Below, piece by piece: positions 7,108 through 17,901 of a stretch of DNA of 64,000 bases. Made by a program: the position numbers and the translations under genes. Every line of letters begins with the position of its first letter. Position 1 is the stretch's first letter. Source of the DNA: Saksenaea vasiformis B4078. Its lineage: Eukaryota > Mucoromycota > Mucoromycetes > Mucorales > Saksenaeaceae. A model generated the notes under the pieces. The model did no database searches and was not told the DNA's origin. It worked only from the letters and a program-made list of their open reading frames with translations. Location of the stretch: positions 1 through 64,000 of the forward strand of contig JNDT01002333.1 in NCBI GenBank assembly GCA_000697055.1, in the 5' to 3' direction.

Positions 7108-9215
7108 ATGCCTTCGCAACAAACCACCAAGTCCAAGGCAAATGATTCTCGATCTGCTGGGACAAAATCCTCCAAGCAGACGGGAAAAACCAAGCCGATC
7201 GTCAGCATTTCTAACGCGTCGTCCCCTGGTACCATTCAATCATCGACGTCTACGATACTGATTGATCTGTACAGAGGAGATCCTTCATGCATCCTGGAAA
7301 TTCCTTTACGTCTTCCAGTTTTTATCTTTGTTTCGAGATTACTTCCAGCTTCCAGAATTTACCATTAGTGATCTTGAATCAGCATTAATCGATGGAGATT
7401 CCCGGTCATCTGACTGTGATGATTCTTCTGAGGACTTGGCAAAGCATCGCCTCTCCACAGAAATCCTTTTGAAGTTGCTTTTGCGTGTTCTGAATTCCAA
7501 AGACGGCAAATCGCTTATGTATGATCTAATACACGATTACATCACTCTTATATAGCTCTGTAGGGAGGATAATTACAATCAATATTTGTTTGATTTCCTC
7601 TCACAACGCGCGTCAGATGTACCTGTTCAGTTCAAGAAAACCGACGTTTACACAGACAAGATTGTACAAGAGAAAGTTGAAATACTCAAGTTTCTGGTGG
7701 ACTCTATCATAGATACGGATCGCAAATCATTGGACGCTTGGAAAGCTAATATCCCTCCAGCAAATATGGTTTGTCAATAGCACACATTCGGTACAGTGAC
7801 TAACCTATATCCCGTATAGAGGGCTCTTCCTCTTGGAGAAGACGCTGATGGTTGGACCTACTGGTGTTTTGGAGGTTTGTGCTCCTAGAATTACTTGCAG
7901 CTTTAGCTTAGTACAATACATAGAGACGCGACTCTACCGAGAATTGCCTATCCCTACTGGGCGGAAGGGTATAAATATGCTTCAAAAGACTAATTATACA
8001 TTTGAATTGGTAAGTTATAAATCCCATCAAACAAAAGTCTAACGTAGATAGGTTTGCCAAACGGTGGAGGACTGGGATATATGGATTTCAAAATTCTCGC
8101 CAACATCACGCAAAGTAACAGAAAGAAACCTTGCGATACAGCTTGAAGAAATGGGACCTCAGGTTATTAAAAAGCTACAAGCTGACGAAGCTGCGAAGAT
8201 ACGACGTGAAGCGAAACGAAGAAAAATGAAAGAGCGAGAAGAGATGCCTCGAAAGAGGAGCAGACGGTTAGAAAAAAAGGTAAATATTGTTACTTAGCAG
8301 TTCTACAAACCAAATATAGTATGACGAGGAGATTGAACGCCGTAAAATGGAAGAAGTTCAACGACAGCAAGAGGCGCTCGAAGCAATTCAACGAAAAAAT
8401 GAACAGAAAAAAAGAAAGGAATTGGAAGAGAAAGAGCGACAGCTTGTATTATCCGCGGTAGAGCCCAATAGATGGGTACGATAGAGTAACGTTGTAACCC
8501 TGATTTTAGGAAACAAAATTAAAAGCTCAGATCTACAAGATAGTCGACGAGCTTGCAATAGAAGCAGTTCGTGAAAATCGGGCGGAATCGAGTAGACGAT
8601 CGCAAATGACGATCAGTACGCGGGTGACTTTTCTGAAAGATCTCCGAGCAAAATTGAGCAAGTCAGCTGACGAGAAGGAAATAATTCAAAAAATGAGAGG
8701 TTGGATATCTCTCCTTGATCCATCAGACGCCGTTCAAGTAAATCCTGGAAATCGGCAGACGAGATCGTTGATCCAAAAACTAATTTTCAGTGGAGATGGC
8801 AGCAAAAAAGGTAACTAATTATCTCCTCTCCATTGAATTAATCAGTCTAAAAGGCATAGAAGATCCACTGTTGAAGAATGCTTTACGTGTCTTTATCGCA
8901 ACTGTTCGATCCACTGAGTCGGCCAAGCCTTTCTTAGAACCAGTTGATCCTACTGAAAAAAGCTTAACGAATTATTACGATGTGGTTTCCGAGCCGATGG
9001 ATCTACAGACAATATACAAGAAGTTGCTGTTGGACGAGTATCGGGAACTGAAACATCGACAAGGCTTTGAACAGTTCTTGTATGACTTGGGTTTGATATT
9101 TACCAATTGTTATCTATTCCACGCCGAGGACAGCCAAGAATATGAGGATGCTCAGGCAACGGAATTGTACGTGTATAATTTATTTATTTCTGTCTTTGGA
9201 CGCGATGAAGTCTGA
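7108..9215 (+). CDS. DDT-WHIM-bromodomain chromatin protein (ISWI accessory-type)
   Basis: This is a nuclear protein of the class that partners ISWI remodellers (BPTF/CECR2/ACF1-like). About ten exons are joined with good phase; for example, intron 7229-7274 leads into EEILHASWKFLYVF, and the 45-nt intron 7519-7563 removes an in-frame stop. Domain order is as follows. A short basic/Ser-rich N-terminus precedes a DDT domain (HASWKFLYVFQFLSLFRDYF). WHIM motifs follow (KVEILKFLVDSIIDTD, then PLGEDADGWTYWCF and ETRLYRELPIP), then a long Lys/Arg/Glu coiled coil (about 8150-8450). A C-terminal bromodomain ends the protein (FLEPVDPTEKSLTNYYDVV, PMDLQTIYKKL, FTNCYLFHAEDS). No PHD finger is seen between DDT and bromodomain, so it is nearest in layout to CECR2. 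The acetyl-lysine-binding Asn is replaced by His (codon 9120-9122). Small exons leave some boundaries uncertain. Confidence 0.82.
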
Positions 9216-9835: not shown

Positions 9836-10560
9836 TGTATATGGGTTATGCCCTATTTGCGCATCTATCTGAGCTTAGCTTCACGGTTCTTGGCTGCATG
9901 TTGAAAGCAAGTTTTTATTAACATGCAGTTGCATTCTTCTTTCACAACCGATCATGCATCGTTTTGGTCACTGTAGTCCGTCAAAGCTCTCAAGTAGCTA
10001 CTCTATCGATTGTTCTAGGATAGTCGACGCAATCTGGCTAACGTATTTCAAAATAACTCGCACTGTCCATTGACGACATGGGGATGACCGTCCTTTTTTT
10101 TTTATGACTGTCTCAAAAACTTTATCAGCTTCATTATCATATTGTAACCTCCTCTTTGCGCTGAACAACATGTAATCCTGACCGCTTTGCAGCGATCGAT
10201 GCACCAAAAAAAAGTTCCGGAACTTTAGTTTGAAAAATTTGCTTTATTCTCGTCCATATAGGTCGTGCACTGTCGCCCACGGGTCGTTTCTCCTGAGAAT
10301 ATCAGTATCTGAGCCCTAGATCTCATCTGTGTCTCAAAAGAAAAAGTCAGAAAACTGTAATACTGTGTTTGATTTTCTTTACCTGATCCAGAATTCACGA
10401 TAACTCCTGTCATGGCGACAGGTCCCGATCCACTCAACCTTCATTTGATAAAAGGGTTGTTATCGCAAAGGCAGAGGCAGTACTTACTCTTCGCAGAGTT
10501 TCCGTGGAGAGGTCGCGCACCTTCAAATTATGGGCGTAATATTAGTGTATACATGTCATA

Positions 10561-13500
10561 CAGTTGGCGGTAATTTATCGATAATTGGTGGCGCCGGGAA
10601 TGAATGGTCTTCAAGCCGAGGAATTGCTGGGGTCGAAAGGTGCTAACGTCCTTCTATCTACAGACAGGACATTGCTTGCGCATGCCAGACCTATTGCAAG
10701 AGCTGCTTGAACGTCTCTATTTTGCGTAGCATGGCCTGATCGGTACGCTGTGCAACTCGGATTGACACACTGAGAGGCACCGTTTACCCTCACTGTCTTC
10801 CACTCTCCCTTCTTTCTTCGCCGGGCTTTGGCCCTCTCCACTCTTCCAAAACAGTAGACACATAACTGAGAACTCCGGTGCTCGTTCGTCATTGACACTG
10901 GCACATAAAGGCGATGTCGTCTACGCAACCATGCCCCTCCACGTCTAGTATGACCCTTCCGTCGAGAACCGACACCGGTGCCCTGAGTTCCTATGGCCAT
11001 GATAGGCACGATGTTTTGTGCACCATCCTTCTCGGTCTTGGCAGCTGTCTTGACAAACCTCCGTTCCTGCGCAGCAATTTGATCATAAACGCGACTGGTA
11101 AACAGCGCCTGGGTGCGTTTCTCATGGTGAGCATGGTTTGAGTGGTAAAATGATCGCAATTGTTTTCGGCAGTTTCTTTTCACCTATTATGGATTGAATG
11201 GTCAGAGTAGAGGACAAAGACAAGGATAGTACCTCTTGCGACTCTAAAACCTGTTCTACAGTGATTGCTAAAGCCGACGAACTTTCTTGCAATTTTTTTT
11301 CCGCGGTCTTAACTTCTGAATCGTTCTAATATGAAGTGAGACCCTGAATTCACAGACTGCATTATTATACCCTCTTCCTCTTTTCTCTTTTTTGCGAAAC
11401 TTCCTGGAAAAGGTTTTTTCTTCCAGATATCCCGCCGTGATCCGCATTGGTTTTGGGAGTCTGGACATTTCTTCAGGAATGGATATTGGTATCTGGGTAT
11501 CGTCCAATTGGCGATTGTGTAAGTTGAAGTGTAAGCGAGCGCGTTCCATTGTAAGAGGGACAGTTATCGCCAGAACCCTCAACCCATAATCCGTCCCGCC
11601 AAAGGTAATAGCTTTCTTGTGATACTGGCCGACTTGCCGATCCAGCTCTGTAACGTCAAGGAACTGTGTACTGGCTTCGCAACCTGGGCGATTCCAACTT
11701 GTAACCTTACACATCTTTACCTCCTCCTCTTCATTGTCTCCCTCTGACTCCTTTTCCTTTCCCTTTTGCTTCTTCTTGAGACCATCCAGTTGCTATAGTT
11801 TGATTTAATTCGGTTGATTGACTGGTGCATGCGATATCCTTTAGTTACCTTCTGACATACATATCGCCGCCTTCGCTGATCTGCCAATTCCGACCGTATC
11901 TTGCTTAAATTATGTTGTTTCTCTGCGCGCTCCAATTTCGACGTCTTCAAATCTTCGTAGCTCTCGCTTTGCTTTTCCTTCCCCTTGCATCGCTGATATT
12001 TATTTTGTGGCGCTTACGTTTGTCCCGGATTTTCCTTTGGATAGCATCTTTTCTCCGTTGATGCTCTTCTGTCCGATTTTGGACAACATTTTCTGCCTGC
12101 TGTAACGCCTTTTTTGATTGTCTTTCTGCCGACTCCAGAACTTTGACCTTACATTTTGCATCTTCCAGGAACGTTGTAACGGTTGGAATATCTCGGTCTG
12201 ATTCATTCTCAAAGAAACTGTTCCCCTCGTCCGTATTCTTCCATTTTGCGTTCTTCCTTCTTTGTTCATAATGAGATACAGTTATGTTCCTTCCTTTTTG
12301 AACGTTCCCATCAATCATCGCCATTTGTTGGGGTGTAACAGTTACTCGCCACCGTGGTTCCAAACCGCGAGCACTGCAAATACGAGTGATTTTGTCTTGA
12401 TCAAAGAAGGAGCCGATTACGGCGGCTTTGTTCGTTCGAGCTTGCCTAATATTTGCAATCGCGCTTCCATCTTCTGTGTGTAAGTCGAATTTTGCAGAAG
12501 TCGAACCAAGGAGTTCATATATGGACGCCGCATCGAGAGGCAATGCATGGATTGAGGCAGGGCTGATCGCTGGGCAGATGTTAGCAGTGAATTTACTGTA
12601 TCCAGTAGCATGGAGAACGGTATTCGATAACAAAACAAACCGAACACGCAAGGCAATCGCAGTACTTGATCGTCCTTTCGGTATATATGGTGTTAGCGCA
12701 TTCGTAATCTGAACGACGGTATCTATCTCGAATTTCTGGAGCTTGCTATCATCATCGTTCCACAACCCCGAGACATCAGCGTCATTCACTTTTCCTTCAA
12801 TATCTGCTGATAGCAACAGTTTCTTTGCAATAGCTTGAATTCGTATCAACCTCCTTCTGCTGGGCTCTTTCTTCGCGTCATTCGCCTGAATGTCTTCTGA
12901 TTCCTCTTGCATCTCTTTGATTGCCATCTCAATTGCCTCATATACTCCTTCATCGTCTATTCCACCTATATACACAGGGATATCCAACTCAGTTACTTCA
13001 CCTTCAGGCTACATGACGTTTGATCTGTTAATATGTCGATGACATCGGATATTGCGCTCACCTCTTCATCCTTCCGAGACTGTGGATTTTCACCTTTCTT
13101 GGGCATGTGTTCCTCTCTCGTGCGTGATTGCAATCTTGTAATCGCATCTGTGCACGATTTCTCACATCGCAACAGTTTAATCCTTTGATTTTGATCCGTT
13201 TCCACTTCCAGCCGTTTCTTCAGGCGTCTTAAATTCTTGCGTTCTTGTTTTATTTGTCCTTTGATCTGACGCCGATGCCATTTCTTTTTCCTCTTCATTG
13301 GTTTGATACTCTCCTCCCGTTGCTTTTCTTTCTCTTTTGCTTTTTTCTCGGCAATCTGACGGACTTTTCGCTCTCTTTCAGGGGCAAGGTTTAGTTTAAG
13401 AAGTATACGGAGTAGGTGATTAATCGATTTATAAAACAAACCGCCTGCCCACATGTTTTGTAGATTGGTGGCGTATTGCTTCAGCTGAAAGTGCATTGTG

Positions 13501-15142
13501 GTGCTTAAGCCGGCAGGTGGTTTTGGCAAACCTTTCAACATTGGGTGTTGCAGCGCAGACCAGAAACGTTTTTCACTAGCCTTATAAGTCTGTCTCCCGA
13601 AACAGCTAGAATGGATAAATTGCAAATGGGCTTCGCTGAAGAGGTTGCTGAATTCATCATTGCTCTTCTGTGGCAAAGCCTTCAGATATTTCGACACATT
13701 GTCAGGTAGTGGCACCACTGGTACCGTCAAATTAGAGTTCAGAGCTTCTGGATTGCGGACTGATTCTTTGGGAATAACTTCCAAAATGTTAAACATCTCT
13801 GGGCTGTCCTGCTGATAACGAGCTTGCTTTGAATGCTGATCCAATATGACGGTACTGGCAGCGTAGTCCGTAACTTGTTCGGATGTGGCAGTTATGGTAT
13901 CGAGAAACACTTGCTTCACTTCATCATCCAGATCACCTCGTAAGATTCCAGATAATCGAACCGAGCATTCCCGGATCGTGTCCTCTTCGTCCTCTCTTTC
14001 GTTGTTTTCAGTAGTATCCATGCTGCAGCCTTGTTCTTTCGCCTGCACTTATTCGTCAATTTCTTTCTGTGCTTTTTCGGCAGCGTCATCAAAATTTGCG
14101 ATGGCATATTTTTGCCAAAGAGCCCCAATTTGCCCTGACCCAGGATATTCCGAAGCGAGGGTCCTCCGGGTAGTTCCTTGTTCTGCATTAAGCTTATCAT
14201 CAGCTTGTTCGAACGACGACCTTGGAATGCGATCTGCCTTCTCCAGACTTTCTCGTAGTTCTTGCAATTTTTTTCTCTGTTTTTCTTGTTTCTTTTCTTC
14301 TGACCGCTGACGTGCTTTTTTTGTAGACTTTTTCTTGGGTTTATCTTCAAGGCTTTTTAGGACTATCGCTTTCAGTTGGTCGTGGAAGACACTGCACAAG
14401 GCCTCAAGTGCTTGGTCTACCGATATCCCTGATTCAGCCGCCCTTTTCCTTTTGCGCTTCAAACGTAACTGGGGTGGCGGTACGGTCATGCTTAATAGGC
14501 AGAATATAACTGGTTATTAAGTTTCTGCATATATCGCTCGACAAATTCTCACTCTGTAAAATTCAATACGCGTATGTGAGATAAGGAGAAGAAAAAGTTG
14601 TCAGTAGACGGTCTTTTTTCTTTCTTTCAAAATTTTAACGGTCCTGTGGGTCTTGACATCATCTTTGATCCTGTTACCTGTTCAGCGTTCAGTCAGACAG
14701 CGGTCCGTAAACCTTGAACAATATACCACAATAAGCGATGCATTTGCTGATATTTTTTATATATCCTTCTGAGGTAAAACCATCAACAGAGGGCCAAGAG
14801 ATAATTATCATAGCTTCGGATCAGTAAAGGAATAAAGGGCCCACGGTCCGCAAGGGTGACTCAGATCGAACAGAAGGATGGAAATGACATCTATAAATAG
14901 ATTACAAAGCAAAATAAAACATGTACATTGCACAATGCCACTAGGTAGTCATTGTGTTTGTGGTATTCGATGGATCAAAATAACTGAATCATCTTATGGC
15001 ATTTGCGGATACGACTCGGACGAAGAGTCGGATAAAGAGTTATCCAGAAGTCGATGTATTTCTGTCCCTATCTGCCTATCGATTGTCCTATGATCGCAGC
15101 ATAACTTAACTTTAGAAATCAAAAGTAGCTTTACCCTAACTG
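10561..15142 (-). mobile_element. Candidate TA-flanked element carrying the Fanzor gene
   Basis: A TA at 10559-10560 is followed by CAGTTGGCGGTAATTTATCG. On the far side, TTTACCCTAACTG is followed by TA at 15143-15144. Read inward from each end, the termini are CAGTTGGCGGTAA and CAGTTAGGGTAA, a short imperfect inverted repeat with TA on both sides, as expected of Tc1/mariner-type integration. The 3' end of the Fanzor ORF is 50 bp from one terminus. The right end match is only about 12 bases and was found by eye, so the boundary is tentative. Confidence 0.35.
10611..14489 (-). CDS. Fanzor (eukaryotic TnpB-family RNA-guided endonuclease homologue)
   Basis: Fanzors are eukaryotic descendants of transposon TnpB; family members cut DNA using a guide RNA made from their own 3' end. 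Several minus-strand exons join by phase; introns include 13009-13061 and 11793-11860 (GTATGT..ATAG), one near 11970-12017 and 11184-11232. The N-terminal 750 or so residues are Lys/Glu-rich helical regions with Fanzor-like blocks (QLKQYATNLQNMWAGG; VIGSFFDQDKITRICSARG). The RuvC core follows. RuvC-I is TFGGTDYGLRVLAIT, with Asp at 11589-11591. The displaced RuvC-II Glu typical of Fanzors lies in TNEHRSSQLC (10881-10883), after an IGTQGTGVGSRRKGHTRR loop. A zinc-binding insert CVYC...CVNPSC is followed by RuvC-III NRDVQAALAIG, with Asp at 10713-10715. The product would be about 1,200 residues, long for the family. Damage or mis-joining is possible: an in-frame TAA at 14049-14051 splits off the first 146 codons, and the junction near 11326 needs a 32-nt intron or a frameshift. 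If translation starts after the TAA (ATG about 14021), roughly 1,060 residues remain. Confidence 0.8.
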
Positions 15143-15429
15143 TACGAGAAAGTTTGAGCAACAGGCCCTTCATGGATGAATAAAAATGACGTATTTTCTT
15201 TAAAGGTAAAGGACCCAGTAAGTGTGGATTGGAGTCTCTTTCCTTTGTACTGCTGCAATGCAGTGCTTCAATACATCTGAACTTCAGAGCATGAACTAGA
15301 GCTTTGTGGATCTCTATACTGTGGGTGACGCGGGTTTAAGGTAGAATGCAGACCACAACGCCTTTAATGTCTGTGGTTCTGCCATCGGCCAGTCCACAGT
15401 GTCTCTAATCTGCCTCCAACACTGATTCC

Positions 15430-15712
15430 GCATATATCTGGAAAGAGGGAACAATGTTTGCTTGTCTGGAATCCTTCCGCATAGTCTAGGAACAAGATAT
15501 GGAACTTCTTGGAAAAAGGATCGAAAATTATCTCGCTTTTTCAGCAGAAGAAATAAGCTCTACAAGGTTATTGAAGAAACAGCCAGGAGGGAGCGCACTT
15601 CTTGCGAAGAAGCAGCCAGAGATTGGAGCAAAGACGAGTAGAGATGGGCATATCCCTTGATAAGCTTAGAAAAACAATAAAGGATTCTGTTAGCCCGTAA
15701 AGCGGTGTATCT
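15430..15712 (+). pseudogene. Relic of a GCR1_C DNA-binding domain
   Basis: The plus strand encodes, across a stop and a frame change, IWKEGTMFACLESFRIV, then GTRYGTSWKKDRKLSRFFSR, continuing as RNKLYKVIEETARRER, and, one frame over, MGISLDKLRKTIKDSVSP. This matches the pattern of the GCR1_C domain (a W..W and Tyr-Gly-x-x-W core, then RFFxRRxxIYxxIE). That domain occurs in yeast Gcr1 and at the end of fungal Crypton tyrosine recombinases, and it is abundant in Mucoromycota genomes. No recombinase domain is visible upstream. It is not translatable as it stands. Confidence 0.5.
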
Positions 15713-16281
15713 GTACATCTCATTCAGTAATAAAAGCGAATGCCTTACAACAAGAAATGCCGTAAAGAGCCTTTCAGTTATGAAATTTGGTAACTATTAA
15801 TACAGAAGTCGTAGAATTACTCTATTTTCCAAAAGATACTAGCCTAAACTATATTCTCTTATGATATAAGGTTGTTTTACGTCCTTGTTATATAGATTCA
15901 GAGCGAAATCGATAACTCCCAAATTGCAGATCTATGCATAAAATTCACCGCGCACAGCAGCGGAAATTAAATTTTTCTTCCAGAGGGTATTTGCCTCCCA
16001 AGTCTCACTCCGCTTGAATTTCAACGAGTCTCAGGTCTGAGTCAGGGCTTAGCCCAAAAAAATACCCTCACAGCATTTCCGAGCGATAAACCTATTTAAC
16101 AGAAAAAGCTATGTTTCCAGCTGGTGAGCCCCCAGGTTACGCGACCTCTAATTTTAAAAAGGCGACATTTTCGCTGTAATATTTTTTTTTTGCTAAAAAT
16201 AAACATATGAAAAGAGACAGAGAAAGAGAGAAAGAAAAAAAAAACTTTCTCCTTTCCATCTTTTAACTTGTAGTTTGCCCA

Positions 16282-17901
16282 ATGTACAGCAACACAGCAC
16301 GGGCGGACAGTCCTCATTCACCTGTTTACAGCGGGGCACACTCGCCTCGATCACCACCCCTACCACCACAGCATCAACAACAACAATACTACGGCAACTT
16401 TGCAGCTGATACATATTCCAATCGTCCGGAAGGAAGTGAAAAGACGGCTTTGCACGATTCCTATGAAATGCACCCACAACCCACCAGATCCTATGCCACA
16501 CCGTCCCCTACTATTTACCACAATCAGCAACAACAATCACCCTATCCTCCTCCTCCACAGCATGCTGGTTACATGTATCCGCCTCAGCCCACTCTTCCTC
16601 CTCCAGCTCCTCTAATCTCAGTTCAATATGGCCCTAATCGACCACTGTGGCTGCGCATGCTGATTGGTCCTGTCCAGCACGCATGGTTCAGTTGGCTTTC
16701 TGCTCTTGGCATGTTGGCCGTCCTTATTTTAGAGTTTGTCCAGAACTATCAGTTAACAGGCCAAGTTATCCAGACCAGCCCCATCAATCCGATGATTGGC
16801 CCGAGTTTTCCTGTAAATCGATCTTCCTTTTTTTACCGCATCAACCGAGAAAAAAAAAGAAAAGTGGCTCAATGTTGTTTTCTTGTAGGTTTTAATTCAT
16901 CTTGGAGCACGCTTTACACCTTGCATGCGTCCGCTGCCTAATGTGCCCTTGTCCACGGTATACCCAGATTGTTATCGGTCGCTGCAGGATACGTGTTCCT
17001 TAGAAAGTCTCTGTGGATTCGATGGATTCGGACCTGACGGAGTACCAAATCAGTCGTTCCGGTTGATCCTGCCCATTTTCATGCATGCTGGCATCATCCA
17101 TTTCCTGGTAAATATGTTTACCCATTTACGTACAGGTGTCGATCTCGAACGCACCTTGGGATTGCCAAGGTATGTGCTACTCTACATGGCGTCAGGCATT
17201 TGGGGCTTTATCCTCAGCGCCATGTTTTCTCAAGGAAAGTCTGGTAAGTCGCAACTTGTATATGATAGGGGGAGGATGGGAGGAGCGACAACCTCAATGA
17301 AAACGTAGGATGGAATAATAAACCATGCATTTTCTTCTTTTTCTTGTATTTTTTTTTATTCTCGCAGCTTCTATGGGATGTTCAGGTGCCTTGTTTGGTT
17401 TAATTGGCTACATGCTTGTGGATGTCCTGATCAACTGGAAGGTTTTATCCCATCCTGGACGTGAACTAGCAGGTATTCTTGTAACCATCATCATCTCGTT
17501 GGTTTTGGGACTGTTGCCCGGTTTGGACAACTTTGCTCACGTGGGTATGTTTTGATTACTCTTTTGTTTTCAACCTTCCGTTTTTTACTAAAAGGAATCT
17601 ATTATTTAGGTGGACTTGCTGTTGGTATTGTGATGGGTATTTTAATTGCACCTATGCGACCCAAAGCATCCCGAAGAGCAAAACTGATCACCTGGTTTGC
17701 ACGTGCCGTTGCGTTGGTCCTCTTAGTTGTCATGTTTGTTGCTCTTATCAAAGTATTTTACTCTACACCAGATCCAAGCACGGTAAGAAATTAGAGAGGG
17801 AGAGTAGTAGTGAGCGTTGTATTGATTTGTGTTGTTAGATTTGTCCAAATTGCAAGTACATTTCTTGTATTCCTGTACAAAACTGGTGTGATATGTATTA
17901 A
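16282..17901 (+). CDS. Rhomboid intramembrane serine protease
   Basis: This is a multi-pass membrane protease that cleaves transmembrane substrates. The roughly 110-residue cytosolic N-terminus is rich in Pro, Gln, Tyr and His. A first hydrophobic segment (WFSWLSALGMLAVLILEF) is followed by a Cys-containing loop and the rhomboid core: HAGIIHFLVNMFTHL, then GCSGALFGLIG with the nucleophile Ser, then NFAHVGGLAVGI with the catalytic His. Five exons fit by phase; the first intron has GTAAAT, and one splits the HVG-G codon. A last short exon adds ICPNCKYISCIPVQNWCDMY and ends at 17901, a Cys-rich tail common in fungal rhomboids. Both catalytic residues are present, so it should be active and not an iRhom. 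ATG 16282 opens the frame. Confidence 0.92.

Follow-up and report, generated by a model that had tools for sequence, protein, structure and literature searches.

What kind of nuclease is encoded on the minus strand between positions 10,316 and 14,489 of contig JNDT01002333.1 of the fungus Saksenaea vasiformis B4078, and in what setting does it lie? In the 64,000-nucleotide stretch analyzed (positions 1 to 64,000 of the contig; hereafter the window), a preliminary description had taken the span 10611..14489 for a homologue of the RNA-guided nuclease Fanzor in a fungal nuclear genome. The reading that we favor, with a probability of roughly 0.78, is that the window contains a Mucorales element of Crypton origin in a short and decayed copy, whose cargo is a very large RuvC nuclease, a divergent one within the TnpB/Fanzor superfamily, with a fold closest to that of Fanzor1, and for which we propose a mechanism combining a recombinase with RNA guidance.

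The three RuvC positions described previously, namely Asp in GGTDYG (D931 in the joined gene model), Glu in NEHRSS (E1136) and Asp in NRDVQAA (D1193), were all present, as was the C-x2-C ... C-x4-C insert between the Glu and the last Asp (C1143/C1146 and C1174/C1179), and all of them were invariant in the seven rows of an alignment (A3) including the window. In a wider set of 16, both Asp residues were altered or missing in P0005, the Glu and the last Asp in P0010, the RD segment in P0008 and the start of the zinc ribbon in P0016, and the fragments P0006, P0012, P0013, P0015 and P0017 left some motif positions uncovered. The arrangement was in good agreement with the TnpB/Fanzor motif D-X(125-275)-[TS][TS]-XX-C4 zinc finger-X(5-50)-RD (given in PMC3627910), with D931 followed by 207 residues, SS1139-1140, C1143/1146/1174/1179, 12 residues and RD1192-1193. 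The Fanzor fingerprint, as worded in part of Yoon et al. (2023, PMC10711439), combines a RuvC-I DPG, found "near exclusively", with a relocated RuvC-II Glu six residues before the zinc finger. Six residues separate E1136 from C1143, and this Glu was kept in all seven rows of A3 and lost in P0010; RuvC-I, on the other hand, reads DYG in all seven rows, and DNG in P0014, P0015 and P0016. Since SpuFz1, the Fanzor1 of Spizellomyces punctatus, coordinates metal via D383 and N385 (PMC10432273, in its account of the active site), the DPG rule is not absolute. When aligned with SpuFz1, the Glu and the last Asp also fell on its E541 and D606 (numbering as in the same account), albeit in a non-significant alignment.

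The structural comparison revealed a RuvC/TNB fold with SpuFz1 as the best match; the two best structures were both fungal Fanzor1 proteins, and GtFz1 and Fanzor2 matched no better than TnpB. The window exons remained below the Pfam cut-off: PF07282 (Cas12f1-like TNB) gave 10.2 bits against a cut-off of 26.3 and no match for P0001, the annotated Apophysomyces ossiformis protein EC973_007782 (1285 aa), and it was passed by one of the 17 members scanned (L051, 29.1 bits). Apart from L051, neither the window exons nor P0001 nor any further relative scanned reached a curated Pfam cut-off; there was no NCBIfam match for P0001, and no match in single-protein sequence searches of the PDB. A homology bridge links the family to a PF07282-positive paralogue. 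The named relatives were exclusively fungal (Apophysomyces, Helicostylum and Mortierella), the rest coming from metagenomes, and tblastn confirmed no relative among 49 and 47 pattern matches in viral and prokaryotic contigs, respectively, a pattern-based search of limited sensitivity. With the structural match, the paralogue bridge, the predicted introns and the Mucorales relatives, the earlier assignment is supported for superfamily, fold and host; with the DPG fingerprint absent, placement as a canonical Fanzor is not.

At about 1,270 codons, compared with 600-700 residues for most Fanzor1 (as stated in part of PMC11423790), the protein is indeed larger than the characterized members, and its RuvC-I Asp comes only after about 930 residues, compared with 382 in SpuFz1 (counted from D383). 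Because of the DYG/DNG, this long lead and a length beyond that of usual Fanzor1, we regard it as a Fanzor1-like variant rather than a canonical member. The preliminary description raised the idea that the N-terminal extension might be a new domain; the predicted model of P0014 (predicted local distance difference test score 62.7) shows a long helical hairpin (residues about 228-350) ahead of RuvC, for which the matches were generic coiled coils, and hence no domain is claimed.

A bacterial TnpB from the clade with D-Phi-G and relocated Glu might instead have been captured separately by eukaryotes, in place of a derived Fanzor1; the mechanism would be the same, so that this reading overlaps our explanation. 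The combination of DYG and relocated Glu would fit the D-Phi-G side of the split drawn in PMC10711439 (again in the part concerned with the fingerprint), the sequence is distant from the PF07282-positive open reading frames (ORFs) of the same genome, and neither GtFz1 nor Fanzor2 outperformed TnpB in the fold comparison. Against such a capture speak the two best structures, both fungal Fanzor1, the lack of relatives in bacterial, archaeal or viral contigs within the limited sensitivity of the pattern search, and the D-N-G of distant members, which suggests drift at that residue. We consider it a minority explanation, with odds of perhaps one in several.

Comparison with the other copies, with the paralogue L046, which lacks introns in this stretch, and with P0001 yielded a predicted minus-strand model of eight exons and seven introns, starting with the ATG at 14489 and ending with TAG at 10318-10316. 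Exon 1 (13062-14489) encodes the Lys/Glu-rich N-terminus and is followed by exon 2 (11849-13008); exon 3 (11371-11792) carries GGTDYG, with the Asp codon at 11591-11589; exon 4 (11233-11325) comprises 31 codons, the corresponding stretch being unbroken in L046; and exon 5 (10579-11183) contains the RuvC-II Glu (10883-10881), the C4 zinc ribbon and the RuvC-III Asp (10715-10713). Exon 6 (10488-10520, RCATSPRKLCEE) matches the C-terminus of P0001, exon 7 (10383-10438) begins with LSGSGPVAMTGVI, and exon 8 (10316-10326) includes the stop. Introns 1-4 (13009-13061, 11793-11848, 11326-11370 and 11184-11232) are GT-AG and all in phase 0 in the model, and 10 of the 15 other copies share these sites, while five are truncated or altered at a splice site; the exon joints match P0001. 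For introns 5-7 (10521-10578, 10439-10487 and 10327-10382), a script read through to the stop in only three of 15 sequences (L025, L030 and L035), a splice site being missing or a wrong intron-7 start being picked by the pattern in the other 12. The start previously described was confirmed, and the phase-correct introns were retained as predictions; the end at 10611 was not kept, given that its TGA is absent from all 14 other covering copies and that three further introns lead to the TAG, and an apparent exon boundary near 11950-12010 proved to be a frameshift. The C-terminal tail of the family, GPVAMTGVI (window exon 7), is conserved downstream of RuvC-III, and the differences between subfamilies fall there mainly on third codon positions.

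The three 3' exons had been overlooked, as had the mobile element containing the gene and its Crypton parts. When the window segment 9400-15000 was compared by blastn with the 38.7-Mb genome, 39 matching stretches were obtained; eight matches besides the window exceeded 4.5 kb at 85-97% identity, and all of these started at window 10302-10305. The most complete copies begin at 10297-10305, with the right end at 16078-16080. From such copies and their aligned ends, the window element, a short form of about 5.77 kb, was delimited to 10303-16076, from a left direct repeat CAGTAT (10303-10308, plus strand), the element proper beginning TATCTGAACCC, to a right repeat CAGCAT (16071-16076, plus strand). 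The left-end pattern matched 25 sites in the genome (up to three mismatches, window included) and the reversed pattern none, and no terminal inverted repeats were detected, the best end-to-end local match scoring 18 against a mean of 17.5 and a maximum of 24 in 200 shuffles. Among nine copies with both ends, the first 3 bp of the NNGTAT repeat agreed between left and right in eight (CAG in six, CTG in L020 and TGG in L029; L021 disagrees) and all 6 bp in four. The right repeat runs into a flank motif YAYTT (AARTR on the gene strand, a candidate target-adjacent motif, TAM), which was found in 11 of the 12 copies with a placeable right end, L038 being the exception (22 sequences were inspected, and 10 with a missing or unalignable end were dropped); the gene-strand flank was exactly RAARTA in eight of the 12, and GAAATG in the window. 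As far as sequence comparison can establish, this is a multi-copy mobile element with short direct repeats and without inverted repeats, and its ends, its copies and its Crypton-type domains identify the carrier as a eukaryotic transposon other than IS607, as expected for Fanzor1. Near the element, a bromodomain (PF00439, E 1.6e-19) is encoded at 8784-9215 on the plus strand; the right flank of copy L024 (on C458) lies close to an ORF that by eye looks like a phenylalanyl-tRNA synthetase.

On the strand opposite the nuclease gene, the element carries a remnant of a CryptonF-type recombinase gene (15426-15641, plus strand), with a match to the GCR1_C DNA-binding domain at 15480-15623 (PF12550, E 5.9e-10, 39.7 bits, cut-off 23); the minus-strand ORFs upstream of the nuclease gene at 14994-15793 gave nothing above the cut-off. 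Ten of the 28 PF12550 matches in the genome, the window's included, lie inside element copies. The long copies L021, of about 8,157 bp with a right end that was located by eye, and L022, cut by the contig end, share 7.46 kb at 93%; both contain fragments of PF16787, which we take to be a marker of Crypton recombinases, on the same strand as GCR1_C and interrupted by stop codons. Such tyrosine-recombinase remnants were found in these long copies only, the short copies holding the GCR1_C remnant. GCR1_C is known from CryptonF recombinases and derived host genes, and Cbf2/Ndc10 has been linked to CryptonF (PMC3212892, in the parts dealing with this group). The short form most plausibly arose by deletion from a Crypton-Fanzor composite. 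Outside the window on its own contig, a CryptonF-type open frame of 661 aa with PF16787 and PF12550 and no stops (C604:99836-101485) might supply recombinase in trans. A further locus (C309:14144-15780), where a GCR1_C stretch 74% identical to that of the element adjoins an open tyrosine-recombinase domain (PF16787, 294 aa), is possibly a closer autonomous relative.

At the other end of the element, the last 117 bases (10306-10422, minus strand) form a candidate omega/reRNA scaffold, with a predicted hairpin CCUGUC/GACAGG and, closing it off, a helix of 16 bp; the 3' arm of this helix consists of the last 17 bases of the element and ends at its 3' terminus. Across 13 sequences, 94.0% of the cells pair, compared with 24.9-43.5% when slid; the 94.0% was reached by 13 of 500 shuffles. 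The covariation was weak, its score being reached by four of 500 shuffles and only one pair changing on both sides, as in 463 of the 500. Folding of single sequences was not exceptional (z-scores 0.32, -1.94, -0.20 and -1.50), and no Rfam match came near the gathering score within 10100-16300. If this structure is the scaffold, the guide would be the 3' host flank, with AARTR just 5' of the guide match at the emptied site, the order known for TnpB and Fanzor.

We accordingly propose, as a working model, that a tyrosine recombinase would excise the element as a circle and integrate it at RAARTAC-NN-like sites. An RNA would guide the nuclease, its scaffold overlapping the last exons and stopping at the 3' end of the element, with the adjoining host flank as guide; by analogy with TnpB, for which Meers et al. 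reportedly described a cut-and-copy role, the nuclease may cut the emptied site beside the AARTR motif, whereupon repair would copy the element back. Defective copies such as that of the window may also have moved in trans, since one frameshift is common to three copies. We suggest no part for the element in virulence.

The window copy itself is, as judged against the aligned copies, a pseudogene broken by several lesions, and a working gene is not supported for it. In exon 1, an in-frame TAA (14051-14049) stands where all 13 other covering copies have a sense codon, and the alignment shows a gap of 45 nt near 13859. Exon 2 has a frameshift of 1 nt near 11981, which recurs in two of 13 other covering copies; an A-run near 11390 is shortened; the exon 5 TGA (10613-10611) is specific to this copy; and the 5' splice site of intron 5 is lost, as also in L021. 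Under a four-intron model, one of 15 other copies was open for 1,256 codons, the rest stopping or being truncated earlier. For exon 5, the ratio of nonsynonymous to synonymous substitutions (dN/dS) was 0.09-0.22 in nine pairs (among the window, L019, L024, L025 and L029), and 0.06 and 0.12 for L019 against the distant L035 and L036, with nine of 21 pairs saturated; for exon 2, the 13 pairs that allowed an estimate gave 0.11-0.59, and 14 of 28 were saturated. The recent pair window-L019 gave 2.7 and 0.89 on few differences. From this pattern, the protein, and its catalytic end above all, is maintained as lineages spread and decays after insertion. The sequence comparisons show that the RuvC is split, with its Glu relocated and a C4 zinc ribbon, that selection between subfamilies is purifying, and that single copies decay.

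The same data bear on the possibility of a nuclease that descends from Fanzor but is no longer guided by RNA, and that helps the element in another way, such as by resolving or nicking together with the tyrosine recombinase. Its large lineage-specific N-terminus, its divergent RuvC-I and a 3' structure that overlaps coding exons with weak covariation would suit this, but the catalytic residues and zinc ribbon kept throughout A3, the strong purifying selection on exon 5, and a terminal structure with a flank motif where a TAM is expected make it improbable. A host gene domesticated from Fanzor, which introns, a long protein and purifying selection between lineages might suggest, is refuted for the window copy: the copies are dispersed, have sharply defined ends and short direct repeats, and have decayed to different degrees. 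The weak primary similarity (10.2 bits in Pfam) would be compatible with an unrelated RNase H-like nuclease or DDE transposase, but this is excluded in practice by the fold, motif order, zinc ribbon and PF07282 bridge. Contamination with a bacterial TnpB, which would have the same motifs, is likewise excluded in practice by the seven predicted introns, the 25 element-end matches across many contigs, the adjoining bromodomain gene and relatives that are fungal wherever named and otherwise metagenomic.

Compared with the Fanzor1 proteins of S. punctatus (SpuFz1) and Parasitella parasitica (PpFz1), the family in this Crypton-derived element differs in its approximately 1,270 codons, DYG, lead of about 930 residues, seven predicted introns and PF07282 scores mostly below the cut-off. 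It shares RuvC and zinc ribbon with TnpB of IS605/IS607, where the element end is expected to yield the guide RNA and a cut-and-copy role has been proposed; it differs from TnpB in its eukaryotic host, predicted introns, relocated glutamate, other transposase and more than twice the length (350-550 aa for TnpB, a range given in part of PMC10711439). By element layout, it resembles MCi-2 of Mucor circinelloides (Bao and Jurka, 2013; PMC3627910, in its description of that element), a Fanzor1 in a Mucorales element with no recognizable inverted repeats, of which the subfamily MCi-2A holds a partial Crypton recombinase; MCi-2 differs in having target duplications of 11-12 bp, ATAATTNNNN(N), and 5' regions that vary, whereas the direct repeats of the window element measure 3 to 6 bp and it holds remnants of GCR1_C. 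The window element is, after MCi-2A, another Fanzor with Crypton recombinase parts. CryptonF, as outlined in Kojima and Jurka (2011; PMC3212892), likewise has tyrosine recombinase and GCR1_C domains and short terminal direct repeats without inverted repeats, whereas the window element adds a Fanzor-like gene on the opposite strand, its recombinase being degenerate in two long copies and reduced to GCR1_C in the short ones.

Beyond this family, the genome as a whole abounds in TnpB/Fanzor-type genes, with at least 137 exon-level PF07282 matches (150 of 388 candidates scored); among those listed, none lay inside copies of the window element when the lists were compared by eye. L046 (C102:5100-9100), together with matches on C511, C186, C110 and C606, represents a second family within this superfamily, likewise in multiple copies, with 34% amino acid identity to P0001, no introns in the compared stretch (one in-frame stop) and a palindrome just inside the apparent 3' end.

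Because only one of 17 members passes the Pfam cut-off and none of the listed PF07282 matches falls in element copies, surveys by PF07282 or by the DPG fingerprint would miss most of the family; in a limited search of the literature on Fanzor with Mucoromycota or the DPG motif, we found no report of such a family, which is no proof for other papers. Judging by this family, Fanzor-type nucleases may accept a different residue behind the RuvC-I Asp as well as a very long N-terminus, and its copies with defined ends yield direct predictions of TAM, guide and scaffold. The union of a tyrosine recombinase and a Fanzor in one element provides a setting in which to ask what purpose RNA-guided nucleases serve in eukaryotic transposition. 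Tentatively, and at perhaps a quarter of our belief, it may represent a third, undescribed lineage of eukaryotic RNA-guided nucleases, giant, with DYG/DNG and relocated Glu, named from Apophysomyces, Helicostylum and Mortierella only, and in its best-seen form carried by CryptonF-type tyrosine-recombinase elements whose recombination site RAARTAC-NN also supplies the TAM; if so, one site specificity would serve both integration and RNA-guided re-copying.

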